A DNA stretch of 64,000 bases from Thermoflexus hugenholtzii (GTDB lineage: Bacteria > Chloroflexota > Anaerolineae > Thermoflexales > Thermoflexaceae): positions 1,302,001-1,366,000 of the forward strand of contig NZ_CP076326.1 in NCBI RefSeq assembly GCF_018771565.1, given 5' to 3'. Both the position numbers and the translations under genes were made by a program. The notes beneath the pieces are model-generated. The model was not told the DNA's origin. It did no database searches and saw only the letters and a program-made list of their open reading frames with translations. Below, one piece after another: positions 788 to 24,689 of this stretch. Within the stretch, counting starts at the first letter, position 1. Each line of letters starts with the position of its first letter.

Positions 788-1543
788 TCACGGCCGCAGC
801 GACCAGTCTGTCAGATCCTCTACGCTTCGTATCCACCTCCCCGTAATCGCCCAATGAGCAAGCTGCAAGTGCACAAAAACCAGGAATAGGTCGCACATGA
901 TGAGACCAATCTCTGTAGATAGAGACAGGATCCTGGATGCAGGGTCAGGGAAGGTCAACAAGAAAACCGTGTTGCTTAATGTGAGAAGGAACAATGAGAC
1001 ATCAACAAGCAAAAGAAATGGCACCAATACAGCAACAGCAAACGCCCGTTTCGGGAAGGGGATTCCGGAACCATTCCCCTCCCCTGGATCTCCGGAAAGC
1101 CTTCGATCAGCCAGAAATCCAGCTCCGAGAAGCATGAATATACCCACCATCGAAGCCAGGACGTTGTTCCAAACCTTCCCCCACACGCCCTCCACGGTGG
1201 CCTTCAAGCCCTCCCACACCCGCCCGACCCCCTGCGTCGCATTTTCCCATCGATCCGCCACCCCCTTTCCCACATTCGAGACCCACCGCACCAGAGGCAC
1301 GCGCGGGGGTGGGAGGGTGAGGCGGGGCCACGCCCACCGCCGCCGCCTCGCCCAGGGCGGCAGAAGGGCGAACACCACCCCGCCCACGGGGATCCCCACC
1401 ACCGCCAGCCACGGCAGCAGGCCCAGCAGATCCTTCGGATCCGCCCCCTCGCAGGCCCCTCGAAGCAGACAATCCCCCCACCGGGCCAGACACTCAACCG
1501 GCTGGGTCCAGCAAGGGCCGGCCTTCTCGATGCGCACGGCCAT
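788..1543 (-). CDS. Multi-span membrane protein of the prepilin array
   Basis: The ATG at 1543 overlaps the TGA of the prepilin gene (TGATG), so the two are probably translationally coupled; the longer open frame upstream only shadows that prepilin. The 251-residue product has a Cys-rich N-terminus and about four to five hydrophobic segments: one near residues 40-60, one near 125-145, two close together near 165-200 and one near 215-235. Its C-terminal tail (ITGRWIRSVEDLTDWSLRP) is a diverged version of the tail on the flanking unknown proteins. The family is not recognised. It could be an assembly or anchoring factor for the adjacent pilin, by position only. Confidence 0.6.
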   Translation of the reverse strand: MAVRIEKAGPCWTQPVECLARWGDCLLRGACEGADPKDLLGLLPWLAVVGIPVGGVVFALLPPWARRRRWAWPRLTLPPPRVPLVRWVSNVGKGVADRWENATQGVGRVWEGLKATVEGVWGKVWNNVLASMVGIFMLLGAGFLADRRLSGDPGEGNGSGIPFPKRAFAVAVLVPFLLLVDVSLFLLTLSNTVFLLTFPDPASRILSLSTEIGLIMCDLFLVFVHLQLAHWAITGRWIRSVEDLTDWSLRP

Positions 1544-1737
1544 CAAAGGACACCCCCCTGCCCAATGAGGCAGCGGAACCAAGCGCTCACGGCGGCGGAG
1601 AGGGCCTCCCCCGGCCCGGCCTCGGTTCGCTTCAGCCCAAAGGCCAGGGCCGCCAGGAGGGCCAGCGCCACCAGCCCAATCGCCACCCACTCCAGCGCCT
1701 GCAAACCCTTCGACCCCCGGACCCACCTCCAGAGCAT
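1543..1737 (-). CDS. Small Flp-like prepilin
   Basis: This 64-residue protein starts at an ATG preceded by GAGAGGAGGCGAAGG. It has a basic leader, the motif KG|LQALEWVA (Gly at the cut site, Glu at +5) and one hydrophobic helix, as in Flp prepilins of Tad pili, although Flp usually has Glu-Tyr rather than Glu-Trp. The short C-terminus holds one Cys. It overlaps the next gene by TGATG. It is very likely processed by the CpaA-type peptidase encoded just upstream in the same operon and would form or cap the pilus fibre. Confidence 0.7.
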   Translation of the reverse strand: MLWRWVRGSKGLQALEWVAIGLVALALLAALAFGLKRTEAGPGEALSAAVSAWFRCLIGQGGVL

Positions 1738-2391: not shown

Positions 2392-2652
2392 TCACTTGCC
2401 CAGAGTGCTTTCAGCTTGCTGCGTAGCTTTCCCAAAGAAGTAGCTGATCGCGTCCGCGATGGCCTTGCCGACCGTGCCCTCGCCGGAGTTCTTCAGATAA
2501 GCAGCCGCTGCGCCCAACAGGGCGAGGATGACGATGGCCAGGGCCACCCACTCCAGGGTCTGCAGCCCCCGGGCGTCCTCGAGGAGCCCCACGAGGCCCA
2601 CCCGCAGGCGCACATACAGGGACAACGCCCGATCCGAAAGCCGCGTCCACAT
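2392..2652 (-). CDS. Flp-like prepilin, probable major pilin candidate
   Basis: This 86-residue protein begins at an ATG with the ribosome site CAGGAGGGTTGCC. It has a longer leader of about 29 residues than the other two prepilins, then the same block, ARG|LQTLEWVALAIV, with Gly before the cut and Glu at +5, a single hydrophobic helix, and a polar C-terminus rich in Gly, Ala and Lys. It is the first prepilin after the prepilin peptidase gene. The motif and size fit the Flp family; that it is the major subunit is a guess from its position and clean architecture. Confidence 0.7.
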   Translation of the reverse strand: MWTRLSDRALSLYVRLRVGLVGLLEDARGLQTLEWVALAIVILALLGAAAAYLKNSGEGTVGKAIADAISYFFGKATQQAESTLGK

Positions 2653-2833
2653 GGCAACCCTCCTGTAGGTTTAGGATTCCGGCGATGCAGGCCCCCGAGA
2701 AGCCTCCACCCGCCGGTCTATCTCCATGTTAGCCGATACCCCCCGGATTTTCCGTTAACACAACGTTACAGTTTTGATAACCGAGATACAACCTTATAAA
2801 TTAATCAAGGTTGAAAATCCGGGGCTGGCCTTC

Positions 2834-3271
2834 TCAACCCGGCCCCCACAGGCCCCAGAGGGCCCCCAGGGCCAGCCCGGGCCCCATCGGCAGGGTGCGA
2901 TCGGGCGGGAGCCGGCCCAGGGCCCACAGCGCCCCTCCCCCCAGGGCCGTGACGCCGAAGGCGATGAGCAACGCCTCCATCACCCGCGGGAAGCCCAGGG
3001 CCAGCCCCAGCACCACCCCCAGCTTGAGGTCCCCCGCCCCCGCCCGCTCCGGGCCCACCAGGAAAACCGGCAGGAGGAAGACCCCCGCCGCCAGGGCGGC
3101 CCCGGCCAGGGCGCTCCCCCCCTGGCCCCGCAGCGCCTGCAGAAGGACCAGCCCGCCCATCGCCGGCAACGTCAACGCATTGGGGATCCGCCGATCCCGC
3201 AGATCGGTCCACGCCGCCCCCAGGGCGATCCCGGTCACACCCACCCGCACCGCCAGCTCCACCCCGTCCAT
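2834..3271 (-). CDS. cpaA: Prepilin peptidase, CpaA/TadV type
   Basis: This membrane aspartyl protease cleaves prepilin leaders on the cytoplasmic side. The 145-residue length suits the short CpaA/TadV branch, which lacks the methyltransferase domain of PilD. Both catalytic regions are visible: WTDLRDRRIPN near residue 22 and GAGDLKL near residue 80, each with its conserved Asp, between hydrophobic helices. The ATG at 3271 overlaps the stop of the sensor kinase (TGATG), so a longer upstream extension is rejected. Its substrates are probably the three prepilins encoded just downstream. Confidence 0.9.
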   Translation of the reverse strand: MDGVELAVRVGVTGIALGAAWTDLRDRRIPNALTLPAMGGLVLLQALRGQGGSALAGAALAAGVFLLPVFLVGPERAGAGDLKLGVVLGLALGFPRVMEALLIAFGVTALGGGALWALGRLPPDRTLPMGPGLALGALWGLWGPG

Positions 3272-4506
3272 CACCCCTCCTCCCCCAACGATTCGGATGC
3301 CCCCGGGTCCAGAGGCAACAGCAGGCGGACGGTCCACGCGCCGCCCGGCCCCTCCAGGAACTCCATGGATCCGCCGTGGGCGGCGACCAGGGCGCGGGCG
3401 ATCTCCAGGCCCAGCCCCATCCCCCCGCGCCCCTCCCCGCTCGCCCCGCCCCGGATCTCCACCATGGCCTGCTCCCCAGCCCCCGCCGTCACCCGGATCT
3501 CCTCCCCCGGCCGGCTGTAGCGTCGGGCGTTCTCCAGGAGGTTCTCCAGAACCTGTCGCAACCGCGCCGGATCCGCCCGGACCGGCAGGGGGACCCGTTC
3601 CAGCGCCACCACCAGCCGGCGTCCGGAGGCCTCGATGCGGGGGAGCATCCCCTCCACCGTCCCCAGCAGGAGCTCCGCCAGATCCGCCGGCTCCGGGCGG
3701 ATCGGGAAGACGGCTCGATCCTCCCGGGCCATCACCAGCATGTCTTCGATCAGCCGGGCCAGATGGCGGGCGTGAAAGGCCGCCCGGCGGACGCGAAGGC
3801 GGGCCTCGGAGCCCTCCGGGGCCTCCGCAACGGCCTCCAGCTCGCCGAGGAGCAGGCTGATAGGGGTCAGCAGCTCATGGGAGGCGACCAGGAGGAACCG
3901 CCGTCGGATCTCCCGGAATCGCTGGAGGGAGCGGGCGATCTCCTGAAGGGCGTCGGCGATCTGACCCAGCTCGTCCGACGAAGAAGGAGGGAGGGGCGGG
4001 GCCGGATCCCCGGCCGCGATGGCCCGGGCCGCCGCCCGGATGCGCCGCAGCCAGAACGAAAAACGGGCCCAGAGGAACACGTGAACGGCCAGCACGGCGA
4101 TCCAGACCAGCAGCGACATCCTGAACAGGCGGAAGTAGAACCCCGGGGCGCCGCAGCTCGGGCAGAGGGCCGACCCCGGGCCCATGGCCAGCTGCCGGCC
4201 ATCCGAGAGGGAGATCCCCAGGGGAACGACCTGCGGGAAGCGCGGGAGCTCCGCCGGGGGCAGCGCATACAGGGTGTAAGGGGCCAGCGCCTGACCGACT
4301 TCCTGCAGGGCGACCTCCGGAGCGACCCCTGCGGTCGCCCGCGCCCGGACGTAGGCGGTCAGGAGGGCGCCGGCCGCCTCCCGGTATCCCTGCTCCTGGG
4401 CCGTTAGCAGCGCCGCCACCTCCTGAGGGATGGAGAGGAACAGGACCAGGTAGGTGGTGACGGCGCCCAGGACGGTGATGATCAGGTATTGCGCCCTCCA
4501 GCCCAT
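3271..4506 (-). CDS. Membrane sensor histidine kinase
   Basis: This is a two-component sensor with an N-terminal membrane helix (residues about 7-27), an extracytoplasmic loop that contains a CPSC pair, a second helix (about 128-150), a HAMP-like linker, a HisKA domain with the phospho-acceptor His in ASHELLTP, and an ATP-binding domain with an N box (ENLLENARR) and a GMGLGLEIA lid motif. The G1 box, where the family usually has Asp-x-Gly-x-Gly, reads IRGGASGEG, so the Asp is not evident. It lies 10 bases after the response-regulator gene and overlaps the prepilin peptidase start. It probably pairs with the regulator at 4517-5236 and may tune pilus expression. Confidence 0.88.
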   Translation of the reverse strand: MGWRAQYLIITVLGAVTTYLVLFLSIPQEVAALLTAQEQGYREAAGALLTAYVRARATAGVAPEVALQEVGQALAPYTLYALPPAELPRFPQVVPLGISLSDGRQLAMGPGSALCPSCGAPGFYFRLFRMSLLVWIAVLAVHVFLWARFSFWLRRIRAAARAIAAGDPAPPLPPSSSDELGQIADALQEIARSLQRFREIRRRFLLVASHELLTPISLLLGELEAVAEAPEGSEARLRVRRAAFHARHLARLIEDMLVMAREDRAVFPIRPEPADLAELLLGTVEGMLPRIEASGRRLVVALERVPLPVRADPARLRQVLENLLENARRYSRPGEEIRVTAGAGEQAMVEIRGGASGEGRGGMGLGLEIARALVAAHGGSMEFLEGPGGAWTVRLLLPLDPGASESLGEEG

Positions 4507-4516
4507 CCGCCTCCTC

Positions 4517-5236
4517 TCATCCGCTTCGGAGGATCAGACGATAGCCCGCGCCGCGCGCGCTTTCGATCTGCACCCGATCCCCGAAGGCCTCCCGGAGCCG
4601 ATGACGAAGGCGGTGGATCAGCACGCGGACGGCTCCCTCGCTGAGGAAGACGGGATCCTCCGGGCCGGCCTCCGCCAGCTCCTTGATCGGGATCCAGATC
4701 CCGGGCCGCGCCGCCAGCCGCCAGAGAATGATCCATTCCGAAAACGAAAGCATCGTGCAACGATCCCCCCAGCGCACCGTCCGGAGGCGCGGATCCAGCT
4801 CCAGAGGGCCCACGGATCGGGGCATCCGGATCCGCCCGATGCGTCTCCGGAGAAGGGCGCGCAAACGGGCCACCAGCTCCTCGCTCTGGAAGGGCTTGGT
4901 CATGAAATCATCGGCCCCTCCCTCCAGGGCCTCCACCCGCAGCTTCGGATCCCGATAAACGGTGAGGACGAGGATGGAGGGCGGATCTCCCGGCAGCGGC
5001 AGCGCCCGAAGCACGCGCAACGCCTCCAGGCCATCCGCATCCGGAAGGGAGAGGTCCAGCACGATCAGCTCCGGCATCGGCTCCCGGCCCAGCCGTCGCA
5101 GGGCCGCCTCCAGGGTCGATGCCAGCTCCACCGCGAAGCCGGACCGAACCAGCCCGTCCCGGATCAGGGGGCCGAGATCCGGGTCATCTTCGATCAGCAG
5201 AACGACCGGCAGGCCCAGCTCCCCGGCTTCCCCCAT
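4517..5236 (-). CDS. OmpR/PhoB-type response regulator
   Basis: The product has a receiver domain in the first ~120 residues, with the acidic pocket IEDD, the phospho-acceptor Asp in LIVLDLSLPD and the Lys in MTKPF. A winged-helix DNA-binding domain follows, ending in the usual VRVLIHRLRHRL...GAGYRL pattern. The start ATG at 5236 lies one base after the WD40 gene's stop region, so an upstream extension overlapping that gene is rejected. With the kinase encoded next, it forms a two-component system inside the pilus operon. Its target promoter is not visible here. Confidence 0.9.
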   Translation of the reverse strand: MGEAGELGLPVVLLIEDDPDLGPLIRDGLVRSGFAVELASTLEAALRRLGREPMPELIVLDLSLPDADGLEALRVLRALPLPGDPPSILVLTVYRDPKLRVEALEGGADDFMTKPFQSEELVARLRALLRRRIGRIRMPRSVGPLELDPRLRTVRWGDRCTMLSFSEWIILWRLAARPGIWIPIKELAEAGPEDPVFLSEGAVRVLIHRLRHRLREAFGDRVQIESARGAGYRLILRSG

Positions 5237-5237
5237 C

Positions 5238-7733
5238 TCACCGCGCTCCCCACAGGAAGATGGTCCCATCCTCCGCCCCCGAGGCCAGCAACCGTCCGTC
5301 CGGCGAGAACGCCAGGGCGACCACCGCCCCCGCCCCCTCATGTCCCCGCAACGTCCTCAGCGACGTCCCATCGGAGGCGCGGATCAGATGGATCTCGCTC
5401 GCGAAGCTGCCCGCTGCGAGAAGCGCCCCATCCAAAGAGAGCGCCAGGCTCCAAACCGGCCTTTCGGAAATCAGCTTCCGCGGCGGCCCGTCCTCCCGGA
5501 GCGGAAGCTGCCACAACCCGAACTCGGTTCCGACGAACAGCCATCGGCCGTCCGGGCTGAAGGCCATCGTCGCCCGGATCCCCCCTTCCAGCGGAATCCG
5601 GCGGGGGGAAGCGCCGAAGACCGCCAGGGGTTCCAGATGGACCTCCCCGGTGGGCAGCCAGACCGCCAGCCATCGGCCGTCCGGACTGAGGGCGAGATGA
5701 GAGCCCAACCCCGGAACGCGAAAGACGTTCAACGGGCGGCCGGCCTCGTCCCCCACCTTCAGGAAACCGAAGCCCCTTCCCACCGGCGTCCTGCTCCCTG
5801 CGGGGACCGAAAACCGATAAGGTCGAAAGTCGTTGCCCCCGGCGATCACCGATTCCCCATCGGGGGACACCGTCAGATCCGAGCGCCACCATGGATCGCC
5901 TTCAAAGGTGGCGATCCGACGCCCATCCGGGAGGGTCCAGAGGTGGATCTTCCCATCCGCCCCGGCGGAGACCAGCCACTCCCCCTGCGGGTGAAACGCG
6001 ATGGCGGTCACCCAGAGGCGATGGGCGCCCCATGCGGCGATCGGCTGCGTGGAGGAGATCGGCCAGATGCGGAGGGTGCCGTCGCCGAAGCCCGCGGCCA
6101 GCCAGCGCCCCATGGGGTCGAAGGCCAGGGCCTCCGGATGCATCCCGATCGGGAAGCGCGCCTCCTGCCGCAACCGCATCTCCGGCCACGTCCAGAGCCG
6201 CAGGGCGCCGTCCGAAAACGCGGCCAGGAGCCCCTCCGGCGTCCCCTCCACGCTGTCTACCCAGGCGATCGGATCCGCATACAGGACCTGTCCCGCTCCG
6301 TCCGGGAGCGACCATGAGCGGACGGTTCGATCCGTGCCGCCGGAGAGGAGAACACGGCCATCCGGGGAGAAGGCGAGGGCGGTCACCGGGCCCTCGTGGC
6401 CGGCCAGCGAGACCGCCTGCGCCGCCGGCCCCCGCCACAGGAAGATGCGGCCATCGGATCCGCCGGCCGCCACGAAGGAGCCGTCCGGGCTCCAGGCTAC
6501 CGGGACGATCCACTCGCTGCCCGGCTCCAGCCGGCGACGCTCCTCCCCCGTGCGGGGATCCAGAAGGTGGACAGCCCCCGCGCTGGTCCCGGCGGCGAGC
6601 TGCGCCCCATCCGGCGAGAACTGCACGCTGAAGACCCGAATGTTCAAACCAAAGGTCCACTCAGTCGTCGCCTTCTCCCGCTCGATGCGCATCGTGGCCT
6701 TGCGATCCTGGAGAGGAAAGGTCCAGCGGGGCGTGAGCGCCGGGATCTCCCACAGGCCGATCCCCCCGAGCCATCCCGCCGCCAGATGCCGGGAGTCGGG
6801 GGAGAAGGCCAGGCTTTCCACGAAGGGGCCGGGAGCCTGCACGGAACGGACGATGGCCGGCCCGGAGGGCGATCCCAGATAGATCCGCCCCCCCTCGGTC
6901 CCCAGGGCGAACCACCGGCCATCGGGGGAGAAGGCCGCCTCCAGGATCGGATCTCCCCCCGGGATCGCCAGCTCGTGAATCGGCTGAAGGGTCTCCGTAT
7001 CCAGCCATTTCGCCTTATTCCCGAGAGAAAACAGGATCCAGCGCCCATCAGGGGAAAGGGTCGCTCCCGCCGGCACGCCCTCCGCCCCCCAGCGGGCGAG
7101 GGCCTCGATCCGATCCGGGGCGGCCCCCAGGGGCTCCTTCGGGAGGGCGAAGGTCGCGCCCTCCGCAACGGCCTCCGGGGAAGGCGAGGGCGTGGGGAGG
7201 GAAGGCCTCTCCGGGGAAGGCGTGGCGGTTTCGCCGGGGGCAGGCGAACGGATCGGGGCGGGGAGCCGCCCGGCGAACTCCCGCAGGTAGGAGACCGCGA
7301 TGGCCATCCCGGCGCCGAAACCGAGGGCCGGGACGGCCAACAGGATCGTGAGCAGGAAGGCCCATCGGCGTCGTTGCCGCGCCCTTCGGGCCTGTTCCAG
7401 CTCCTCCAGCCAGCGACGCGCCGTGCGATCCCCCCGCTGGAAGTCGGGGCGGCGCGCCACGATGCGGCGCAGCGCCGCATATGCGGCCTCGCGATCGCCG
7501 GATTGAGCGGCGGCCTCCGCCGCGGCCCAGTCCGCCTCCAGGGCCTGCATCTCCTCACAGCGATGGCAGGCCTCGGCCCAGCGGTCGCGGTCCGGGTGCG
7601 CGGGGAAGCGGTCCATCAACCAGGCGTAGAGCTCCCTCGCCTCCGCCCAGAACCCTTCCGCCTCCCAGCGCCGGGCCCGCTCCAGGCTGCGGGCGATCAG
7701 CGCCTCGGCATCCTGCTCCCCATCCTCCGGCAT
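5238..7733 (-). CDS. Membrane-anchored WD40 repeat protein with cytoplasmic helical N-terminus
   Basis: The 831-residue product starts with a helical, TPR-like region (residues 1-115), a basic stop-transfer and a transmembrane helix at about 124-147. A Pro/Ser/Thr-rich linker (160-190) leads into a long series of WD40-type blades marked by repeated FSPDGRWL-like motifs, about a dozen, which would make one or two beta-propellers on the cell surface. Orientation (helical part inside, propeller outside) is inferred from the basic residues before the helix. It lies directly between tadC and the response regulator and shares their operon. A sensory or adhesive scaffold role for the Tad machine is possible; no catalytic motif is seen. 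Confidence 0.8.
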   Translation of the reverse strand: MPEDGEQDAEALIARSLERARRWEAEGFWAEARELYAWLMDRFPAHPDRDRWAEACHRCEEMQALEADWAAAEAAAQSGDREAAYAALRRIVARRPDFQRGDRTARRWLEELEQARRARQRRRWAFLLTILLAVPALGFGAGMAIAVSYLREFAGRLPAPIRSPAPGETATPSPERPSLPTPSPSPEAVAEGATFALPKEPLGAAPDRIEALARWGAEGVPAGATLSPDGRWILFSLGNKAKWLDTETLQPIHELAIPGGDPILEAAFSPDGRWFALGTEGGRIYLGSPSGPAIVRSVQAPGPFVESLAFSPDSRHLAAGWLGGIGLWEIPALTPRWTFPLQDRKATMRIEREKATTEWTFGLNIRVFSVQFSPDGAQLAAGTSAGAVHLLDPRTGEERRRLEPGSEWIVPVAWSPDGSFVAAGGSDGRIFLWRGPAAQAVSLAGHEGPVTALAFSPDGRVLLSGGTDRTVRSWSLPDGAGQVLYADPIAWVDSVEGTPEGLLAAFSDGALRLWTWPEMRLRQEARFPIGMHPEALAFDPMGRWLAAGFGDGTLRIWPISSTQPIAAWGAHRLWVTAIAFHPQGEWLVSAGADGKIHLWTLPDGRRIATFEGDPWWRSDLTVSPDGESVIAGGNDFRPYRFSVPAGSRTPVGRGFGFLKVGDEAGRPLNVFRVPGLGSHLALSPDGRWLAVWLPTGEVHLEPLAVFGASPRRIPLEGGIRATMAFSPDGRWLFVGTEFGLWQLPLREDGPPRKLISERPVWSLALSLDGALLAAGSFASEIHLIRASDGTSLRTLRGHEGAGAVVALAFSPDGRLLASGAEDGTIFLWGAR

Positions 7734-7794
7734 CCGTCCTCCTCCGGAAACTCTCCCGGACCTGCGGTCGCAAGGGAGCGCCCTCGCCGTCCCC

Positions 7795-8697
7795 TCAGCG
7801 CGGGAAGAGGCCCTGACCGAGCAGCTGAAGCACCATGCCGCCGGCCAGCATGCACATCACCGCCGGGCCGATGATCAGGGCGACCAGCATCGAGGCCACC
7901 GGGCCGACCCGGCCCACCCACTCCCGGGCCTTCTGGATGCGGCGGGCGCGCATATCCGCCGCGATGCGGGTGACCGTGGGGGTGAGCGGCTGGCCGAGGC
8001 GCTCCGCCTGCTGCATGGCCTCCACCCAGATCCGCAAGGCCGGGGCATTGTTGCGCGCGAGCAACCCCCGATACGCCTCCATGCGGGGGAGGCCCATCTC
8101 CAGCTCATGCAGGAAGCGGCGCAGCTCCTCGCCCAGCGGGTTCTGCAGGCGCTCCGTTAGATGGCGCAGGGCGGCCTCGAAGGCCAACCCGGCCTCCAGC
8201 AACACCGCCAGGGTGTCCAGGAAATCCGGAACGGCCCGGTCGATCTGTTGCTGGCGTCGCTCCGCCAGGCGGTTCATCCAGAACGTCGGGGCCAGGAAGC
8301 CTCCGGCTGCGGCCAGGACGGCCACGATCAGCATGCAACCACCGAAGCCCAGCAGGATGTCCATCAAATAGAGGAAAACCCCGAAGGCGGCCCCGGCGAG
8401 GCCTCCCAGCACATGCATCCCGTAGAAAGCCTCCACCGTCAGGCCGTAAGGATAGCCGGCCTGGGCCAGGGTCCGGGCCAGACGCTCCCGCCCCAGCAAG
8501 CCCCAGAAGGCCGGGATCTCCCGAGCCAGCCGGAGCGACCAGCGGTGGATCCGCTCGGAGAGCGAGGAGCGGCTGACGGCCGCCGGATAGGTCTGCTCCA
8601 GGCGCAACCGGGTCTCGGAGGGGAGCGCCCAGTGCCAGACCGCCGCCGCCGTCAGGAACACTGCCACCAGGCCCATACAACTGAAAAGCTCGACCAT
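7795..8697 (-). CDS. tadC: Tad pilus inner-membrane platform protein TadC
   Basis: The 300-residue protein has a type II secretion F (T2SSF) domain: hydrophobic helices near the N-terminus, a pair around residues 95-145, a cytoplasmic helical block beginning DRAVPDFLDTLAVLLEAG, and a final helix near the C-terminus. The ATG at 8697 follows the tadB stop by a few bases with GAAGGGG just upstream. TadB and TadC together form the membrane platform on which the CpaF ATPase acts during pilin polymerisation. Order tadB-tadC is as in other Tad loci. Confidence 0.9.
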   Translation of the reverse strand: MVELFSCMGLVAVFLTAAAVWHWALPSETRLRLEQTYPAAVSRSSLSERIHRWSLRLAREIPAFWGLLGRERLARTLAQAGYPYGLTVEAFYGMHVLGGLAGAAFGVFLYLMDILLGFGGCMLIVAVLAAAGGFLAPTFWMNRLAERRQQQIDRAVPDFLDTLAVLLEAGLAFEAALRHLTERLQNPLGEELRRFLHELEMGLPRMEAYRGLLARNNAPALRIWVEAMQQAERLGQPLTPTVTRIAADMRARRIQKAREWVGRVGPVASMLVALIIGPAVMCMLAGGMVLQLLGQGLFPR

Positions 8698-8702
8698 CCC
8701 CT

Positions 8703-9653
8703 TCACACCTCCACGTGGGTGATGCGGCGGATCAGCAGGAAGCCGCCGATTTGCAAGGCGAGGCTGAAGCCCAGGATGACCCACCCGAGGGGCTGGGTGA
8801 TCAGGGCGTCGATCATGCCGGGCATGAGGGCCCGGAAGAGGATCAGGAAGGCCATGGGGAGGGCGATCACCAGGATGGCGCTGAAACGGGGCTCCTCGGT
8901 GAGGGCCCGGATCTCCCGTTGCATGCTGCGCCGCTCCGCCATGGTGATGGCCAGACGCTGCAGAACCCGGGTCAGGTTCCCCCCGGCCCGCTGCTGGGCC
9001 AGGATCACCGTGATCATCAGCTCCAGGTCCGCGGAAGGATAGAGCCGGTAAAGATGCTCGAGGGCCTCGTGAAGGGGATAACCCAGCAGCAGCTGCTGGT
9101 AGACCTTCCGCAGGCCCCCGGAGGCCGGCGGAGGGAGGCGATCGGCCGCCTCGCCGATGGCCTGGACGATGGTTTGCCCGGCCCCCAGGCCCCGGGCCAG
9201 GGCGTCTGCCACGTCCGGCAGCTGCTCAGCGAAGCGGATGGCCCGTTGCCGCGCCCGGTGGGCGAGATAGCGCCCCGTGGCGAAACGCACCGCGAACAGC
9301 GCCAGGGAGAGGACCAGGAAGAACGACAAATTCAGGAAGAGGGCGTTCAAATAAAGGACCACGAACACCGCGAAGGCCTGCAAGGCCAGGACCTCGTGCG
9401 GGCGCAAGGACAGATCCGCCGCCTCCAGGCGCTGGGCGAGCCGTTGACCGGATGCGCTCGCGTCGAACCGGGCCCCCAGCTCCAGCAGGAAGCTCCGGGC
9501 TTCCGCGGAGCGGATCACCAGCGACCGCGCTCGCTGGCCGATCTCCCGGCGCTCCAGATAGTGGACCAGATGGGCTCCCACCGCCAGCCCGGCCAGGACC
9601 CCGGTGAGGATCAACCCGATCAGGTAGCCGATCCCTTGCATCGCCGACGTCAT
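8703..9653 (-). CDS. tadB: Tad pilus inner-membrane platform protein TadB
   Basis: The 316-residue protein contains a T2SSF domain with the signature FAEQLPDVADALARGLGAGQ and four hydrophobic segments in the arrangement usual for TadB (one N-terminal, two central, one or two C-terminal). The ATG at 9653 overlaps the TGA of the preceding VWA-like gene (ATGA), which fixes the start and suggests coupled translation. It works with TadC as the platform for pilin assembly driven by the double CpaF encoded upstream. Confidence 0.9.
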   Translation of the reverse strand: MTSAMQGIGYLIGLILTGVLAGLAVGAHLVHYLERREIGQRARSLVIRSAEARSFLLELGARFDASASGQRLAQRLEAADLSLRPHEVLALQAFAVFVVLYLNALFLNLSFFLVLSLALFAVRFATGRYLAHRARQRAIRFAEQLPDVADALARGLGAGQTIVQAIGEAADRLPPPASGGLRKVYQQLLLGYPLHEALEHLYRLYPSADLELMITVILAQQRAGGNLTRVLQRLAITMAERRSMQREIRALTEEPRFSAILVIALPMAFLILFRALMPGMIDALITQPLGWVILGFSLALQIGGFLLIRRITHVEV

Positions 9654-11623: not shown

Positions 11624-11713
11624 GTCTTCCTCCAGGTTCACAGCGAGCTCAAGGGCTTGCGACGGGGATCATCCGGCGCGCCATCCGCAGGGCGATGGGG
11701 AGCAACCACAGGG

Positions 11714-14230: not shown

Positions 14231-14359
14231 CGTATTCCTCCTCTTCGGAACAGATCACGCGATGAAGCTTTCGAGAGGCCAGCAGGCTTCTTCCCCCGCG
14301 CCAAAAGGACCCCGGAAAAGGAGCCCACACCATCCGTGAAGGGACGCCAGCCTCCCATT

Positions 14360-16414: not shown

Positions 16415-16452
16415 CCCTCACCTCCTCTAACCTGGTCTCGGAATTTCCAACG

Positions 16453-17706
16453 TCAAGGGTTTGGTGGCGGAGGAGGATTCGTTGGTGGCGGAGAGCCACC
16501 CGACTCCGGCCCCGGGGATGGGGGCGCCGGGGTGAATGTGGGGGTGGGAGTCGCGGTGGGCGTGGGGGTGGGGCTCGGGCGCGGCGTGGACGTGGGCGTA
16601 TACGTGGAGGTGGGAACCGGGGTGGAGGTCGCCTCTATCTCCCCGGACGCCCGCTCAGGGGTCACCGTTGTGGACTGCCCCGGCAGCAGGATCGGCGTAG
16701 CGGTGCCGCGGGGACGAACGCTCCCACCTTCCTGCTCCGATCCCCCCCGCATCAGCACAGCCCACGCCAGAACCAGCCCCGCCACCACCGCGAGGATGCC
16801 CAGCCCCGCCGGGATGGCCCAGGGCGGCAGCCGGATCCGAAGGGGTGGAGCGACGATCCGCCGCCCCGGCATCTCCATGATCGCCACGGAGATGTTGTCC
16901 GGACCTCCGGCCGCGTTCGCCGCCGCCACCAGGGCTTTCGCCGCCTGCTCGGCGGAGTGGGTCCGCACGATCTCCAGGATCTGCTCGTCAGAGACCACAT
17001 CGTGGAGGCCATCGGTGCACAACAGAACCACATCGCCGGGCTGAAGGCTGATGGGCTGGTAGCGAGGATCGGGGGGGCCTGCTCCGTCTAATGAGGCCAC
17101 CCGCAGATCCACGCTCACCTCGGGCTGGATGCCCACGTAACGCTTGAGGACGTTGCGGTTGGGATGGGTTCGGGCCTCCTCCGGGGTCAGTCGGCCCGCC
17201 TCGATGGCCTCCTGGGCCCAGGTGTGGTCCACGGTGAGCTGGACGATGCGATCGCCCCGGATGAGATAGGCCCGGGAGTCCCCCACGTGGGCCAGGTAGA
17301 GGCGGCCGTCCTCGATCACCGCCAGGGTGACGGTAGTGCCCATGCCTTTCCAGATAGCCTTCTTCTGGCTTTCGGCGAAGACCTCCCGGTTGGCATGAGC
17401 GATGGCTTGCTCCATGGCCTGAGGGAGGGGCGCCGTGGGGTTCTGCTCCAGGAAATGGAGGATGTGCTGGACCGCGAGATTGCTGGCCACCTCCCCGGAG
17501 GCGTGACCGCCGATGCCATCCGCCACCACCGCCACATGACGGGGACGTCCGCCGGGCCCCTGAAGCTCCGCCACCCTCACAGCGTCCTCGTTGTTCTTTC
17601 CGCTCATGCCCGGATGGGTCGCATGAACCAGACGGGGCTCCAGGCGGTTATCCGGGGTCGCGGATCCCCGCGCTTTCGCAGCATCAGCACGAACTCGAAG
17701 GGCCAT
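16453..17706 (-). CDS. Membrane PP2C-type Ser/Thr phosphatase with extracellular Pro/Thr tail
   Basis: Residues 25-280 form a PP2C domain with the metal ligands in NNED (38-41), ADGIGGH (62-68), GDSRAY, TDGLHD (231-236) and GGPDNIS (267-273). A transmembrane helix follows at about 296-318, then a ~95-residue tail of Pro, Thr and Ser that is probably outside the cell. The start has GGAGGTGGGTA in front. The gene directly follows the Ser/Thr kinase gene, and the two proteins share the same layout (catalytic domain inside, helix, PT-rich tail). It should remove phosphates placed by that kinase. Confidence 0.92.
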   Translation of the reverse strand: MALRVRADAAKARGSATPDNRLEPRLVHATHPGMSGKNNEDAVRVAELQGPGGRPRHVAVVADGIGGHASGEVASNLAVQHILHFLEQNPTAPLPQAMEQAIAHANREVFAESQKKAIWKGMGTTVTLAVIEDGRLYLAHVGDSRAYLIRGDRIVQLTVDHTWAQEAIEAGRLTPEEARTHPNRNVLKRYVGIQPEVSVDLRVASLDGAGPPDPRYQPISLQPGDVVLLCTDGLHDVVSDEQILEIVRTHSAEQAAKALVAAANAAGGPDNISVAIMEMPGRRIVAPPLRIRLPPWAIPAGLGILAVVAGLVLAWAVLMRGGSEQEGGSVRPRGTATPILLPGQSTTVTPERASGEIEATSTPVPTSTYTPTSTPRPSPTPTPTATPTPTFTPAPPSPGPESGGSPPPTNPPPPPNP

Positions 17707-17757
17707 TACCCACCTCCTTGCTTCGCTCCCTGTCGGATTTCAACAAGCCCACCCATC

Positions 17758-19011
17758 TCACGATGTGGGGGTTGGGGACGAAGGCGGCGGCATCGGGGTA
17801 GGCGTCGGAGTGCGAGTAGGGACCGGCGTGGAGGTTGGCTCGACGCGCGTCGTTGGGGTCGGGGAGGGCATCGAACCGCCCTGGGGCAAGACTATGGGAG
17901 TGGGGGTGATCCGCACCACCGGCGTTGGGGTAGCTTCCGTCGTGGGAACACCCCGCCCGGTGGAGAGATAGAGCCCCCAGCCTGTTGCTGCCAGGGCCAA
18001 CAGGAAGAACATGAGCAGATTCCGCCCCAAGGAGCGACCGGTTGGAGCCGGAGGCGGTGGGGAGGTCCGTTCCGGCTTGCCGTCCTCTTCCAGAAAGCGC
18101 CGATGCCAGGGCACCGCCTCGTTCAGCCGGCGGGCGACCAGGGAGGCCGTCGGCCGCCGCTCCGGATCCTTCGCCAGCATCTCGAAGATCAGATCGTCCA
18201 GGGGCGCCGGGGTTTCCCGGCGCAGCAGGGAAGGACGGGTGGGCATGCTCTTGCGGATGGCGCTGGTCAGCTGCTCGCGGCTCCGCCCCTCGAAGGGCAA
18301 ACGCCCGGTGACCATGCGATACAGCACCACCCCCAGGGCATAGATATCGGCCGGCCGAGGATCGGGACGGGCGGTGCCGCCCTTCTCCTGTTCGATCTGC
18401 TCCGGGGCCATGTAAAGCAGGGTTCCCGCCTCCAGCCCCCGCGCCCGCTGGCGCTGGGCCAGCCCGAAATCCACCAGCACCGCCTCGATGCCCTCCTGAA
18501 CCGGCCGTCGGAACAGGATGTTGTTGGGCTTGATGTCCCGGTGGGCGATGCCCCGGGCGTGAAGGTATTCCAGGGCCATGGCGACCTGGTAGCCGATCTC
18601 CACCGCCACCTCGATGGGCAGAGGCGAGCGCCGCTTGAGCAGTTCCTCCAGGCTTCCCCCCTCCAGCAGCTCCATCGCGAAATACCACTGTCCCGTCTCG
18701 GGGATGCGTTTGCTGTAAACCGCTCGCGGTCCCTCCTCCAGCGGATACAGCCGGACGATGTGAGGATGGTGAAGCTCGCGGAGGATCTCCACCTCTCCTT
18801 GCAGGGCCTCCTCATAGAAGGCCTGCTCGGCCGCTGTGCGCTCCGTATCCCCTCTTCCCCCCCGAGCCGCCTTTACAGGTCGAGAGACCTTCAGCACTAC
18901 CCGGGCCCCTCGTCGGGTGTCACGGGCGAGATACAGCACTCCCATCCCGCCTTCATGAAGCGGCCGCTCGATCTTAAAAACATCGATCCGTTCGGGAACC
19001 TCGATCGGCAT
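17758..19011 (-). CDS. Membrane Ser/Thr protein kinase (PknB-like)
   Basis: The N-terminal kinase domain shows the Gly-rich loop HEGGMG, the ATP-binding Lys in VVLKVS (K41), catalytic HRDIKPNN (157-164), DFGLAQ (181-186) and MAPEQ (201-205), so it looks active. A linker with PPPPAP leads to a transmembrane helix at about 331-350 and a Pro/Thr-rich exterior tail of about 65 residues; no PASTA repeats are visible. It is encoded between the VWA-FHA protein and the PP2C gene. The FHA proteins next door are the natural candidates for its phosphothreonine readers. Confidence 0.93.
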   Translation of the reverse strand: MPIEVPERIDVFKIERPLHEGGMGVLYLARDTRRGARVVLKVSRPVKAARGGRGDTERTAAEQAFYEEALQGEVEILRELHHPHIVRLYPLEEGPRAVYSKRIPETGQWYFAMELLEGGSLEELLKRRSPLPIEVAVEIGYQVAMALEYLHARGIAHRDIKPNNILFRRPVQEGIEAVLVDFGLAQRQRARGLEAGTLLYMAPEQIEQEKGGTARPDPRPADIYALGVVLYRMVTGRLPFEGRSREQLTSAIRKSMPTRPSLLRRETPAPLDDLIFEMLAKDPERRPTASLVARRLNEAVPWHRRFLEEDGKPERTSPPPPAPTGRSLGRNLLMFFLLALAATGWGLYLSTGRGVPTTEATPTPVVRITPTPIVLPQGGSMPSPTPTTRVEPTSTPVPTRTPTPTPMPPPSSPTPTS

Positions 19012-19051
19012 CTTACGCCTCCGTTAGGGAAAGTGCCGGCTTTTGAAGCCC

Positions 19052-21055
19052 TCACTGATCCGGCTCCTGGAACACTCGGGTCCGATCATCCGCCTCGGAG
19101 AAAGGTCGGGTTTCATCGCTGACTTCTCCCGGCGGAGGCGGGGGCGGCTGGACCGGCTTCTTGGTGGACTGGCCGATCTCCTCCTGATCCAGGCGCAGCC
19201 GGAAGTGCAGCTGCACGCGGCCCAGGTTGATGAGATCCCCATCCTGGAGGCGGGTGCCGTTGATGGGGACCTGCTCGTAGTTCACATAGGTGCCGCTGGT
19301 GCTTCCCTCGTCGTAAATGTAGAAGACCCCTTCCTCCATCTCCTCAATGCGGCAGTGCAGCCGGGAGACGGAGCGATCGTTGAAGACGATGTTGACCAGC
19401 GTCTCGTCCCGGCCCAGGCGAACATGGGTGCTGCGGATGGGGATGGTCCGCCGCTCCGCATCGCCTTCCACCACCACGAGCCAGGCGCGCGCCGGCTCGC
19501 CTCGGGCGGCCCCGGAGGGGAAGAAAGGCTCCGTGACCTCCTTGATGCGCTGCACGATGGGCTGGGTCATGGAGACAGCGGCCTCGCGCAACCGGGGGAC
19601 CCGTGTGAAGGCGATGATGGCGATCAACAGGGAGATCAGAGCCACCATGCACGAGACCAGCGGCAAGAGGTCCAGGATCCCCCGGCCGGCCGGGGTGGGC
19701 GCCACCTGCCGACGGATCAATGGTCCCTCCCCTGTGCTGAACAGACCCTGGCTGTCTTCCACGTCAACCCGCAGCGGATTATCGCCGCCGGGAGCCTGAG
19801 CCAGACTCACAACACCCTCGATCAGGATCTCCGAATCAGTGCGCTGATATGATGTCCTCTCGAAATGCACTGGGCTATCGCCGATCCGGACCTGTCGAAC
19901 GAGGAGATCGCAATTCTTGCATTGGTCGACCCGTCGGATACGTATGGTGATAGGCAAAGAAGGAACTTCGCTGGCCAAGATCGGGGAATCTATCCCTCCG
20001 CGTCCCTCCTCCTGGCCTTCCCACTGAATTTCCACCGCGGGAGGAGCCAGATGAATGGCATAGGACTCCCTCACCTCCATCAACTGCCCCCCGGCGTTCA
20101 GGCGCACACGGATCTCATGAGTGCCTCCCTGGCGAACCCGAGAGCGATAGCGCAAAGCCCAGACTCGTCCCCAGGAGGGAAGAGAACTATAAAACGAAGC
20201 TAGGGCTTCTTGATCCATCCCGTAGAGAAGCACCTGTCCTCCGGTCTGACCCGCAATGCGGCGAAGGTTCTGCATGGCCTGCTCGCTGCCCTTGCCTTGC
20301 GCCGGCCCGATCTGAATCGCATGGACCACAATGCGATGGCCAAACGCTCGATTTGTTACATCCGCCACCTGCTGATCGCTCAGGAAATCGATTCCATCGG
20401 AAAGCACGATCACAAATCCTGGCCGGCCTAAGGCATCTGGACGTTGAGCCAGGATGTCGATGGCCTTGCCCAGCAGATCGAAAAGAGGCGTCGCTTCCTT
20501 CCCCTTAGGCCGTTCCGGAAACTCAAACATCTGCAATCGATTCGAAACCTCGCCGCCATTTTTGGTCAATTCTTTCGGGCCAATGAAATCAATATTGTCT
20601 CCGATTGGGGCGATCAATGCAATCCGAGAGCTCTGATCCTTGGATTTTGCAATCTGACTAACGAACTCCCTGGCCTCCTCAAGCCGGGATTTGCCGGTAT
20701 AGCCGCGGGATCGGGGGCTGAGGATGCTCTGACTGGCATCCAGCAGGATGACGATGTCCGCGCCCTGGGAAACAGACTCCAGGATCTGATCCCCGCTGGG
20801 GATCTCCTGGCTATCCTCCAGCAGAGAATCAACCTTAATGGGTTGATTCGAGGGAAGCCCGGTGGAGAGATCCACCAGCTGGAAGAAAACCGTCACGGTG
20901 GGGAATTGCGTGACATCCACCCCGTATCCACGGACGGCGAGGATCCCTCTTTGGGCGGAGACGGGAGGAGCGAGGAGGATCAGGAACAGCCCCAGGCCGG
21001 CCAGGGCTCCGAGCGAAAGCGCCAGCGCCATCCGCATCCCATGCTTGCCCTTCAT
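19052..21055 (-). CDS. Transmembrane protein with outer VWA domain and inner FHA domain
   Basis: The ATG at 21055 overlaps the preceding stop (ATGA). The 667-residue product has a signal peptide (to about residue 34), a VWA domain with the metal site DASQS at 106-110 and LSDGID near 219, a beta-rich region, a transmembrane helix at about 459-484 and a cytoplasmic FHA domain at about 540-615 with RLGRDE, SRLHCRI and TSGTYVN. The acidic C-terminal tail has two TRPF/TRVF sites (Thr 649 and 659), typical of self- or partner-phosphorylated FHA substrates. It could couple events at the surface to the phosphothreonine circuit of the adjacent kinase and phosphatase. Confidence 0.88.
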   Translation of the reverse strand: MKGKHGMRMALALSLGALAGLGLFLILLAPPVSAQRGILAVRGYGVDVTQFPTVTVFFQLVDLSTGLPSNQPIKVDSLLEDSQEIPSGDQILESVSQGADIVILLDASQSILSPRSRGYTGKSRLEEAREFVSQIAKSKDQSSRIALIAPIGDNIDFIGPKELTKNGGEVSNRLQMFEFPERPKGKEATPLFDLLGKAIDILAQRPDALGRPGFVIVLSDGIDFLSDQQVADVTNRAFGHRIVVHAIQIGPAQGKGSEQAMQNLRRIAGQTGGQVLLYGMDQEALASFYSSLPSWGRVWALRYRSRVRQGGTHEIRVRLNAGGQLMEVRESYAIHLAPPAVEIQWEGQEEGRGGIDSPILASEVPSLPITIRIRRVDQCKNCDLLVRQVRIGDSPVHFERTSYQRTDSEILIEGVVSLAQAPGGDNPLRVDVEDSQGLFSTGEGPLIRRQVAPTPAGRGILDLLPLVSCMVALISLLIAIIAFTRVPRLREAAVSMTQPIVQRIKEVTEPFFPSGAARGEPARAWLVVVEGDAERRTIPIRSTHVRLGRDETLVNIVFNDRSVSRLHCRIEEMEEGVFYIYDEGSTSGTYVNYEQVPINGTRLQDGDLINLGRVQLHFRLRLDQEEIGQSTKKPVQPPPPPPGEVSDETRPFSEADDRTRVFQEPDQ

Positions 21056-22545
21056 GCGTTCTCCCTCCCCGGATGTTCGAAAGCAACCTGCAGCTCGACG
21101 TTTCCGATCCGCAACCGGGCCCCCTCCGGGAGACGGTAGGATCGATCCCGCTCCAGGGGGGCCCCGTCCATCCACGTCGTGTTCACCGTCTCGGGAAAGA
21201 CCCGGATCCACCATGCGCCATCCTCCAGCCACAGCCGGGCGTGTCGACGGGAAACGTAGCGCCCGGGATCCTCGGCGCTCAGGTCCACCTCCGGAGGGTT
21301 TCCCTCCCGGCCGGAGCGACCCAGGATCCCCTCGCGCTCCAGCCGGAAGATCCGGCCGGTGGAGGTTCGCAGCACCAGGATGGGGGGCCGGGCCAGGAGG
21401 GCCTCCACATGGGCCAGGAGCGCCTCCGCCTCCGGGTGCTGCGGCGCGCGGGCCAGCACCTCCCGAAGGATCTCCCGGGCCGCCTCAAGTTGCCCCCCTT
21501 CGATCCGCCGGCGGGCCTCCGTCACCTGCCGGGCGATCTCCTCCTGCAAGCGGGTTTTCTCGATCTCCTCCTTCAGCAGCATCGCCTCGGGATGGCTGGG
21601 CCGGAGACGCAGGATGCGGTCGACGTACTCCGCGGCCAGGTCCAGGGCCCGCAGCTCGTAGAGGGCCTGGGCCTCCGCGCGCCAGAAATCCAGCCAGAAA
21701 TTCATCCCCCATTCCCGCTCCTGAAGGACGGCCGCCAGAGCCTCCAGGGCGGCATCGGGATCCGGGAAACGGGCGCGCGGGTCCTTGTCCAGGGCGCGCA
21801 GGAGCCAGCGCTGGAAGGCCGGCGGCACATCGGAGCGCTGGAGGGGCGGGGGCGCCTGGCTGCGATGGGCCTCCCGCCGGCGGGCCGGATCATCATAGAT
21901 GAAAAGGGGCCGGCCCTCCAGGAGGTGGTAGCCGATGGCCGCCAGGGCATACAGATCCGTGGCGAACCCGGCCTCCTGGCCCTCGATCAGCTCCGGGGCC
22001 AGATAATCCGAAGTCCCCAGGGCGTCCCATGGGCTGACCCCCGGCTGGGTTCGATAGACCGCGCGGGCCAGCCCGGGATCGGTCACATAGAACCGGCCCC
22101 CTTCCCCCCGCACCAGATTGCTCAGCTTCAGGCCGCCATGGGGGGTTTGGACGCGGTGGATCGCCCGCAGGACGAGCAGGACCCGCCAGAGGCACTCGGC
22201 CACCTGGCCGAAGGACAGGCGGCCTCCCTCCTGCTGCAGGATCATATCGAAAGGCGTCGCCCGCTCGATCCACGGGTAAACGACGTAAAGGGCATCCTCA
22301 TCAGGATCATGCCCGACGGAGAGGGGAGCGACCAGATACGGATGGGAGAGATCCTTGAGGCGTCCTGTTAGATCCTCCAGGGCTCTCTCCACCCCCGCCC
22401 GATCCTGGATGAGAAAGGCATGGAGCACCTTCAGGGCGCGGAGATTCCCTCCCGCGTCCCGGGCCCGATACAGGATCCCCAGCTTCCCCTGGTGGACTTC
22501 TCGTTCGATCCGATAGGGGCCGATGCGCCGCCGCCGCATGTCCAT
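21052..22545 (-). CDS. Pseudokinase-TPR-FHA adaptor protein
   Basis: Residues 10-275 form a protein-kinase fold: the ATP-binding Lys (ALKV, K39) is kept, and the activation-segment APE (183-185) is present. The catalytic loop reads HGGLKLSN (136-143) in place of HRDxKxxN, so the catalytic Asp is missing, and DFG has become DPG (156-158). TPR-like helices follow (about 285-385), then an FHA domain (about 400-490) with LGRSG, YVSRRHARL and a modified NTTWMDG. There is no membrane helix. It lies between cpaE and the VWA-FHA gene, overlapping the latter. It most likely binds phosphothreonine partners as a scaffold rather than acting as an enzyme. Confidence 0.87.
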   Translation of the reverse strand: MDMRRRRIGPYRIEREVHQGKLGILYRARDAGGNLRALKVLHAFLIQDRAGVERALEDLTGRLKDLSHPYLVAPLSVGHDPDEDALYVVYPWIERATPFDMILQQEGGRLSFGQVAECLWRVLLVLRAIHRVQTPHGGLKLSNLVRGEGGRFYVTDPGLARAVYRTQPGVSPWDALGTSDYLAPELIEGQEAGFATDLYALAAIGYHLLEGRPLFIYDDPARRREAHRSQAPPPLQRSDVPPAFQRWLLRALDKDPRARFPDPDAALEALAAVLQEREWGMNFWLDFWRAEAQALYELRALDLAAEYVDRILRLRPSHPEAMLLKEEIEKTRLQEEIARQVTEARRRIEGGQLEAAREILREVLARAPQHPEAEALLAHVEALLARPPILVLRTSTGRIFRLEREGILGRSGREGNPPEVDLSAEDPGRYVSRRHARLWLEDGAWWIRVFPETVNTTWMDGAPLERDRSYRLPEGARLRIGNVELQVAFEHPGRENA

Positions 22546-22548
22546 CCC

Positions 22549-23910
22549 TCAACCCTGGCGAGACTTCGCGGAGCTGGCAGGGCGCCCCTGCGCCCCCCCT
22601 CCTTCCAGCGGGAACATCTGATTGGCCACCCGGCGGATGGCCTCCAGCAGCCCGGGGCGCCGCAGGACATCCGATGGCGCGCGGTCGTTGGCCATCCACG
22701 GATCCTCCGGGATCCCGGCCACCCAGCTGACCCCCTTCAACAGGCGCTGGATCGTATCCGGTCGGATCTCGCTGCGCCGCACGGCCCGATTCAGCACCAC
22801 CCCGATCTCCCCCGGCACGTGGTGACGGTGAAGCAGATCGATGGCCAGATGGGTCGCGCGCAAGGCCGCCAGGTCCGGCGTAAGCACCAGGACGATCCGA
22901 TCGGCCCGCTGGAGGGCCAGCAGGGTCAGGAAGTCCGCCGCCGGCGGGAGATCCAGGACCACATATCGGTAATACGTGCGCAGGTTGATGAGGAGATGGT
23001 GGAGGGCGGTGGCCAGGGCGTGCTCCACCCGCACGTGCTGGATGCAGCGCCGATTCACGTCCAGCAGGATCTCATCCTCCAGCGGCCGTCCATCCGAGAG
23101 CGCGCGGGCCAGCCGCTCCAAATCCGGGGCATCCTCCGGAGGCAGCCGGCTGAGCAGGAAGAGATCCCGCAGCATGCCCTGATGATCCTCCTCCCGGGGA
23201 GCGGCGAGGATGTCGAAGGAAAGCGATTCCCGGGCGCGGGTGATCAACGCGTCCACGATGGCGGGAGACCAGTGCTGAAAGTCCAGGCTCTCCAGCCAGG
23301 ACCGGGAGGTCGGGTGGCCGGTCAGGGTTTCGGTCATCCCGGCGTGCCAGTTGAGGTCCACGTAAACCACGCGCGCGGGCTCCGGGGTGGTCGCCAGGCG
23401 GTCCGCCAGGCCCAGGGCTAGGGTGGTCTTGCCGACTCCCCCTTTCAAGCTGAAAACCCCGACCACCTGGCCGGTCTCCCGCCGGGCCGCCGACACGCGG
23501 GCTCGCAGCAGATCCCGAACCCGCTCCATCGATTCGATCCAGCCCTGAAAGCGCATGGGCCGGGTCATCCGGAGGACATCATCGGCCCCCGAGGCCATGG
23601 CGCTGCGAAGATAGCGCGGATCATCGAAGAGGGCTTCGCTGACGATGAGGATCACGGCCACATGGGGCATCAGCTGGGAGATCTGCCGGCACGTGCTCAG
23701 CTCCGGAACCCCTCCCGCGTTCTCGGTGATCAGGACGATCTCCGGAGCGGGACGGACATGGGGCAGCAGCTGAAGGGCCTGATCGGGGTTCTGGAACGTG
23801 CGAACCAGATGGACCCTTCCGCTGTTTGTCAGGTACTCCCGGATCCCCTTTTCCCAGTCCGGGTCGCTGGTGATCAGAACAACCGGGATCAGATCCGTTC
23901 GCGGCTCCAT
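22549..23910 (-). CDS. cpaE: CpaE/TadZ pilus localisation ATPase
   Basis: The N-terminal ~135 residues resemble a receiver domain, but the usual phospho-acceptor position (in EIVLITENAGG) has no Asp, as in many TadZ proteins. The C-terminal half is a MinD/ParA-like ATPase with the deviant Walker A KGGVGKTT at 156-163, VYVDLNW near 190 and VVLDLPP further on. Family members place the Tad machine at a particular cell site. The gene sits right after cpaB, and GGGGAGGGG precedes its ATG. Confidence 0.9.
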   Translation of the reverse strand: MEPRTDLIPVVLITSDPDWEKGIREYLTNSGRVHLVRTFQNPDQALQLLPHVRPAPEIVLITENAGGVPELSTCRQISQLMPHVAVILIVSEALFDDPRYLRSAMASGADDVLRMTRPMRFQGWIESMERVRDLLRARVSAARRETGQVVGVFSLKGGVGKTTLALGLADRLATTPEPARVVYVDLNWHAGMTETLTGHPTSRSWLESLDFQHWSPAIVDALITRARESLSFDILAAPREEDHQGMLRDLFLLSRLPPEDAPDLERLARALSDGRPLEDEILLDVNRRCIQHVRVEHALATALHHLLINLRTYYRYVVLDLPPAADFLTLLALQRADRIVLVLTPDLAALRATHLAIDLLHRHHVPGEIGVVLNRAVRRSEIRPDTIQRLLKGVSWVAGIPEDPWMANDRAPSDVLRRPGLLEAIRRVANQMFPLEGGGAQGRPASSAKSRQG

Positions 23911-23954
23911 CAGGGCCCCTCCCCCTGGGAGATCTCTCGCTCGGGTCTGTCCGC

Positions 23955-24689
23955 CTATGGTCCGATGGCCCGGCTCCGGTCAATCAGGATGGGCGGCTCC
24001 TCCTTCTCGTCCCCGAACCGACGCAGGACGAACCGGATCTCCTTGGCGAAGTTGCGCATGTAAGTGAGCCGGGCCGCCTCCTCAAGGCTGAGATCCAGGA
24101 TGATCACCATGTCCGGGGCCAGCTGGCCGCTGGGGAGAAGCCGGCCGATGGTGGCGCCGGTCAGCTCTCCCTCCCGCGGGAGCAGGTTGCTCACCGCCAG
24201 TACCCGGATGTTCTGGAGCATCACCACCGTCTGCCCTCCGCCGTCGGCCCCTCCTTCCATGGAGACCAGAACATCCACCCGGTTGCCCGGGCGGATCAGG
24301 CCGGAGAGGCCGGTCTCCGAGTTCACGCTGATGGCCACCGCCCGCCGCCCCGGCTCCAGCCCCAGATTGCGATCCAGCATGCTCCAGGCGAGGACGGAAT
24401 CCTTCGGGATCGGGACCATCACCACCCATCCGTCCAGATCCTCATCCGCCTTCACCAGCCCCTGGAGCCGGTTGAAGTAGTAAACCGGGAGCCGGGTGCG
24501 CCGGAAGTATTCCCCGATGTTGTCCCGACGGAGGACGGTGAACTGAGGGACTTCCTTCTGGGCCACCAGCACCTCCAGCTGCTCCCCCGTCACCTGCGCG
24601 GCCTGCTGCACGATCCCAAAGCCGATCCCCACCGTCACCAGCCCGACCACCAGCGCCGCCCCCGTCAAAATCCAGGCCGTCCGCCGCAT
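23955..24689 (-). CDS. cpaB: CpaB/RcpC pilus assembly protein with SAF domain
   Basis: The 244-residue protein has one N-terminal membrane helix (about residues 6-28) followed by an SAF-type domain (VLVAQKEVPQFTVL) and the RcpC region (RPGNRVDVLVS). A GGGAGGGGAG ribosome site lies before the ATG. In diderms CpaB works with the secretin; here no secretin gene (cpaC/rcpA) is visible, which agrees with a single-membrane cell. It is the first gene of the Tad operon, and a candidate promoter lies about 70 bases upstream. Confidence 0.9.
   Translation of the reverse strand: MRRTAWILTGAALVVGLVTVGIGFGIVQQAAQVTGEQLEVLVAQKEVPQFTVLRRDNIGEYFRRTRLPVYYFNRLQGLVKADEDLDGWVVMVPIPKDSVLAWSMLDRNLGLEPGRRAVAISVNSETGLSGLIRPGNRVDVLVSMEGGADGGGQTVVMLQNIRVLAVSNLLPREGELTGATIGRLLPSGQLAPDMVIILDLSLEEAARLTYMRNFAKEIRFVLRRFGDEKEEPPILIDRSRAIGP

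Follow-up and report, generated by a model that had tools for sequence, protein, structure and literature searches.

A Tad-type pilus operon of Thermoflexus hugenholtzii with a double CpaF and an embedded kinase, PP2C phosphatase and FHA module

The window, as the whole stretch of 64,000 nucleotides analysed here is called (G000:C1:1302001-1366000), comes from a genome of 3.32 Mb on one contig. Pfam searches and frame reading located 16 minus-strand genes in it, running from position 24689 to 2392 with intergenic gaps of -4 to +181 bp. In gene order, these are:

23955..24689, minus strand, CpaB/RcpC (PF16976, E 1e-18)
22549..23910, minus strand, CpaE, a MinD/ParA-like P-loop ATPase (PF13614, E 2e-12)
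21052..22545, minus strand, pseudokinase-TPR-FHA protein, 497 aa (PF00069, PF14559, PF00498; motif alignment)
19052..21055, minus strand, VWA-TM-FHA protein, 667 aa (PF00092, PF00498; frame)
17758..19011, minus strand, membrane Ser/Thr kinase (PF00069, E 3e-45; sequence)
16453..17706, minus strand, membrane PP2C phosphatase (PF00481, E 2e-20)
14360..16414, minus strand, secreted Ig-like protein, 684 aa (PF17957, E 1e-7)
11714..14230, minus strand, double CpaF, 838 aa (PF00437 in two stretches, E 4e-112)
9650..11641, minus strand, VWA-like membrane protein, 663 aa (hhalign 98%, E 2.6e-13 against the homologues of G163, G470 and G131)
8703..9653, minus strand, TadB (PF00482, E 9e-19)
7795..8697, minus strand, TadC (PF00482, T2SSF, E 2e-19)
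5238..7733, minus strand, TPR-like-TM-WD40 protein, 831 aa (PF00400, E 2e-66)
4517..5236, minus strand, OmpR-type response regulator (PF00072, PF00486)
3271..4506, minus strand, membrane histidine kinase (HAMP, HisKA, HATPase)
2834..3274, minus strand, prepilin peptidase TadV, A24 family (PF01478, E 6e-14)
2392..2652, minus strand, short Flp-like pilin with an EDAR-GLQTLEWVA leader, cleavage after R (motif scan)

With its CpaF-type ATPase, TadB and TadC, the operon is a Tad-type pilus system. The short pilin gave no Pfam match and was recognised by its motif alone; it is the probable major pilin. The locus continues for approximately 5 kb past the left end of the window with pilin-leader proteins and then TadE/TadG-like genes (G000 1297038-1298125, recognised by sequence only). 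An earlier note on this DNA had described a Tad operon with an embedded kinase/PP2C/FHA module, and Pfam and the frames show that this is real. The families that it had assigned (cpaB, cpaE, pseudokinase-FHA, VWA-TM-FHA, kinase, PP2C, cpaF, tadB and tadC) were all upheld, as were the two-component pair and the A24 prepilin peptidase, which lie on the same minus strand. The secretin that it had reported missing is absent from the entire genome (no match to PF00263 in the profile search), as expected for a cell with a single membrane, the secretin being a part of diderm Tad systems. The position of the module and the type of CpaF had to be corrected. The module does not stand directly before cpaF, since the Ig-like gene lies between PP2C and CpaF; this gene had been omitted from the gene list, together with the VWA-like gene at the CpaF/TadB junction and the TPR-TM-WD40 gene at the TadC/response regulator junction. 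The two complete ATPase domains of CpaF had been overlooked. As to the overlapping codons, the junctions are indeed tight and the pseudokinase-FHA and VWA-FHA genes overlap by ATGA.

In the pseudokinase, the Asp of the HRD motif is replaced by Gly, Ser or Ala in all four orthologues of the genus (motif alignment), and its FHA1 loop is slightly degenerate. The membrane Ser/Thr kinase is active-looking and has the HRDIKPNN and DFG motifs; both this kinase and the membrane PP2C carry a Pro/Thr-rich extracytoplasmic tail. The VWA-TM-FHA protein consists of a signal peptide, a predicted extracytoplasmic VWA domain with DxSxS, one TM segment, a cytosolic FHA domain and an acidic tail. Profile searches of the 3.32-Mb genome gave 5 Pkinase, 2 PP2C_2 and 5 FHA matches. 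The operon holds 2, 1 and 2 of these, respectively, all inside approximately 6 kb, an enrichment far above chance. Another cluster of kinase, PP2C and FHA genes, including a repeat-domain-joined kinase and a J-domain/VWA protein, is located at approximately 0.460-0.466 Mb of G000 (L264 5400-10630). Clustering of these families thus occurs twice in the genome, while embedding in a tad operon is unique there.

Candidate phosphothreonine sites of the T-x-x-F type are present in the cytosolic part of the VWA-FHA protein:

19523..19534, minus strand, juxtamembrane T-E-P-F (EVTEPFFP) between TM and FHA, candidate phosphothreonine
19070..19111, minus strand, tail sites DETRPF and DDRTRVF, candidate phosphothreonines, conserved in the genus orthologues

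The corresponding tail sites are EDKTQPL and DDRTQVF in G122 and EEKTHPL and DERTQIF in G046, and in distant homologues the tail contains as many as four copies of T-E-P-F/Y. In nine such tails, the +3 position after a threonine is aromatic in 19 cases, compared with 0-4 cases at any other offset; serine has no +3 peak in the same tails. Shuffled tails gave a mean of 2.2 at +3, and none of 20,000 shuffles reached 19, but the offset control is the safer of the two as the tails are partly related and their boundaries were cut by hand. A juxtamembrane T-x-x-F/W (mostly T-x-P-F), 20-23 residues past the TM segment, was found in 9 of 11 kinase-adjacent homologues as against none of the 13 others (p 4e-5 by Fisher's test, uncorrected for relatedness; the nine include two close relatives). 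The Tad proteins of the operon were also considered as motif-bearing substrates and rejected, because the motif scan found no T-x-x-aromatic site in them resembling a disordered cytosolic segment. A threonine with a hydrophobic residue at +3 near an FHA domain is the layout of the self-switches GarA, OdhI and DgcB, in which the FHA domain binds a threonine in the protein's own tail that has hydrophobic residues at +2 and +3 (PMC6733907). VWA-FHA differs from these in being a membrane protein with an extracytoplasmic VWA domain and up to several sites, one of which is at a fixed juxtamembrane place.

Both T2SSE domains of CpaF are complete, each with a Walker A motif (GGTGSGKTT) and a His box (TT-x-HANSP). 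Searching 150 genomes of the class and 400 of the phylum revealed double CpaF in the genus and in G079, G131, G151/G163 and G470, to which a T2SSE scan added G563; these genome counts are lower bounds, double CpaF being present in at least these. A tree of the halves (G563 left out), built together with 65 single CpaFs, gathers the N halves into one group (99/89), and a single branch has all C halves on the same side of it (100/93). This separation into two clades argues for one origin with an old split and against a recent duplication. Double CpaF is a rare type with two paralogous ATPases in each chain, and presumably three double subunits form the ring. A VWA-TM protein follows double CpaF in G163, G470 and G131, and the 663-aa VWA-like protein of the window, with a degenerate MIDAS and a C-terminal TM segment, is its divergent counterpart (hhalign, values above). 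The double-CpaF tad locus of G163, which belongs to another class, also encodes a VWA-TM protein, a Flp-like pilin, a TadE-like protein and, at its end, a membrane PP2C; a sortase gene is divergent from this locus (L257 1-12084).

The earlier note had called for a search for conserved adjacency of the module with cpaF, tadB and tadC. In its strict form, such adjacency is rare. Among 117 tad loci of the class (genus orthologues included) and 80 named loci from several phyla, kinase and PP2C occur together only in the genus, and profile searches found the full module in none of approximately 115 other, single-CpaF loci of the class and none of the 80 elsewhere. A kinase alone lies near CpaF in three other tad loci, and FHA occurs in a handful, some in the CpaF frame. 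In the genus, 4 of 9 genomes retain the module, even with VWA-FHA diverged down to 60% identity (range 60-100%); the other five, some of them incomplete, lack this VWA-FHA gene. Searches with VWA-FHA, CpaE and T2SSE refuted the view of the module as peculiar to the genus. Relatives of VWA-FHA were found in 44 of 199 class genomes, mostly adjoining a kinase or PP2C gene. Where CpaF was mapped too, VWA-FHA is usually on a different contig, these genomes being mostly draft assemblies in which contig ends hide linkage; in the single-contig G027, the two are more than 700 kb apart.

In a looser form, the adjacency does recur. CpaE is followed by VWA-FHA in three other families: CpaE, VWA-FHA and kinase stand on the same strand in G039:C14, where an FHA protein immediately precedes VWA-FHA, and in G131:C124, while CpaE, pseudokinase-FHA and VWA-FHA run to the contig end in G079:C40. 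In G563:C196, a double CpaF lies approximately 1.8 kb from VWA-FHA and a kinase, in divergent orientation (the G563 surroundings and the intervals in G039 and G131 were placed by coordinates). Within the class, each genome found to have a double CpaF also has VWA-FHA; in G131, the module and double CpaF are on separate contigs. Retention in the genus, the gene strings in three families, the arrangement in G563 and the co-occurrence with every double CpaF together mean that the link between module and Tad does not look like coincidence. According to the earlier note, coincidence would be indicated by module genes lying away from tad genes, and VWA-FHA/kinase contigs without CpaF do occur in several genomes. 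Six genomes (G064, G108, G128, G039, G132 and G569) carry VWA-FHA and kinase without double CpaF, which means that the module is not restricted to Tad; G108 and G128 have the VWA-FHA module and no T2SSE match over the cut-off. The gene strings and the co-occurrence with double CpaF point to an older unit of the class, which accompanies a CpaE lineage and the double motor, though not exclusively.

Tad systems of Caulobacter and of monoderms have in common with this locus CpaB, CpaE, CpaF, TadB, TadC, TadV, a Flp-like pilin and TadE/TadG-like proteins encoded downstream. The present locus differs from these by its double CpaF, the lack of a secretin, the embedded kinase, PP2C, FHA and VWA proteins and the additional WD40 and Ig-like proteins. 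By FHA content, the closest Tad relative is the Kil system of Myxococcus, in which a Tad machine is likewise combined with several FHA proteins (two here) and several minor pilins with variable C-terminal domains (PMC8460266, PMC12075869). The FHA domains in Tad-like Kil loci have already prompted the idea of control by phosphorylation, and the word "kinase" is missing from the main texts of both papers in a word search (PMC8460266, PMC12075869). Kil has a secretin and an FHA domain fused to CpaF (KilF), whereas FHA is here found in the VWA membrane protein and the pseudokinase; a Kil-like fusion was rejected, as Pfam detects no FHA in double CpaF and the FHA matches are in other genes. FHA and CpaF do share one open frame in Verrucomicrobia-type records and one Pseudomonas record (L188, L198, L207, L226).

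The likeness to type VI secretion proposed in the earlier note is apt as an analogy. In T6SS, Ser/Thr phosphorylation with FHA readers acts as a switch, by way of PpkA, Fha and phospho-TssL, and a kinase, a PP2C (PppA) and an FHA protein are encoded with a cell-envelope machine (PMC3953482). The module here accompanies a Tad pilus, a VWA and an FHA domain share a single membrane protein, and Pfam found no T6SS families among the operon proteins; taken as an analogy, T6SS is the best functional match for the module. The archaellum of Sulfolobus offers another case in which FHA and vWA domains link phosphorylation to the control of a type IV filament, ArnA (FHA) and ArnB (vWA) repressing archaellum genes (PMC6509490). 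These are two separate proteins acting on expression, in contrast to the single membrane protein found here.

The locus is somewhat better explained as a phosphothreonine-controlled double-motor Tad machine, with the sites in VWA-FHA as the switch, than not. The membrane kinase would phosphorylate, and PP2C dephosphorylate, threonines in the T-x-x-F sites of VWA-TM-FHA. The FHA domain of VWA-FHA itself or that of the pseudokinase scaffold could then bind the phosphorylated sites, in cis or in trans, and such binding may cause the transmembrane VWA protein to fold over or cluster. CpaE would relay the state of VWA-FHA to the pilus machine, with control of pilus assembly or retraction as the putative end effect. 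The output to the pilus is deduced from the operon structure and from CpaE standing beside the module in other families; gating of pilus assembly by the module is a plausible outcome.

It is rather unlikely that the module is a free-standing envelope or cell-surface sensor of the class, taken up by the tad operon and merely co-expressed with it, with other targets of its own. The many class genomes with VWA-FHA beside a kinase or PP2C gene and without double CpaF would fit such a sensor, as would G108 and G128, in which no T2SSE match exceeds the cut-off, and the lack of comparable T-x-x-aromatic sites in the Tad proteins. Capture accounts less readily for the CpaE relatives that immediately precede the module in three further families, or for the presence of VWA-FHA in each of the double-CpaF genomes that the class was found to contain and its physical linkage to double CpaF in G563. 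That the module governs the production rather than the activity of the machine, phospho-VWA-FHA regulating expression of the locus, perhaps with the response regulator/histidine kinase pair, seems improbable. There are known FHA-vWA pairs that regulate how a type IV filament machine is expressed (ArnA/ArnB, PMC6509490) and the operon carries its own two-component pair, but in contrast to ArnB the VWA domain is here predicted to be anchored in the membrane and to lie outside the cytoplasm, and Pfam finds no DNA-binding domain among the module proteins.

Returning to the phosphothreonine-controlled machine, its possible cargo is encoded downstream, in an array of pilin-leader genes that occupies positions 1-1737 of the window (minus strand) and G000 1298506-1302279; similar arrays are present in L261 and L038 (G122). 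Two of its genes lie at the left end of the window:

788..1737, minus strand, second pilin-leader gene; the frame stops after 64 aa (1737-1543) and the C-terminal part is in another frame
1..276 and on past the window to G000 1301260, minus strand, third pilin-leader gene, 339 aa in total (motif scan, sequence)

The array proteins share the GLQTLEWVA leader, followed by a long, mostly hydrophobic and partly swapped C-terminal sequence for which Pfam gave no match. Two copies in G122 (356 and 275 aa) have the first half in common and then diverge, and small membrane proteins adjoin several pilin-leader genes. Direct DNA repeats of 299 bp with 96% identity are located at window positions 365-663 and 1797-2095 (G000 1302365-1302663 and 1303797-1304095). 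Such repeats between neighbouring cassettes, combined with the early-ending pilin-leader frame, are signs of recombination between cassettes. The array calls to mind effector/immunity pairs or the variable tips of Kil. That these single-membrane Chloroflexota use a contact-triggered, phosphothreonine-controlled double-motor Tad machine to display or deliver interchangeable pilin-leader proteins is a long shot.

In open PMC papers, no description was found of a Tad locus that encodes a kinase and a phosphatase of its own along with a conserved candidate phospho-acceptor motif; subscription papers may hold parts of it. The T-x-x-F sites bring the idea of phosphothreonine control within reach of a test that needs short peptides and two purified proteins. 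In Caulobacter, a single motor, CpaF, drives pilus extension as well as retraction. As a natural two-in-one version of this motor, double CpaF bears on the question of how a single-motor machine manages both.
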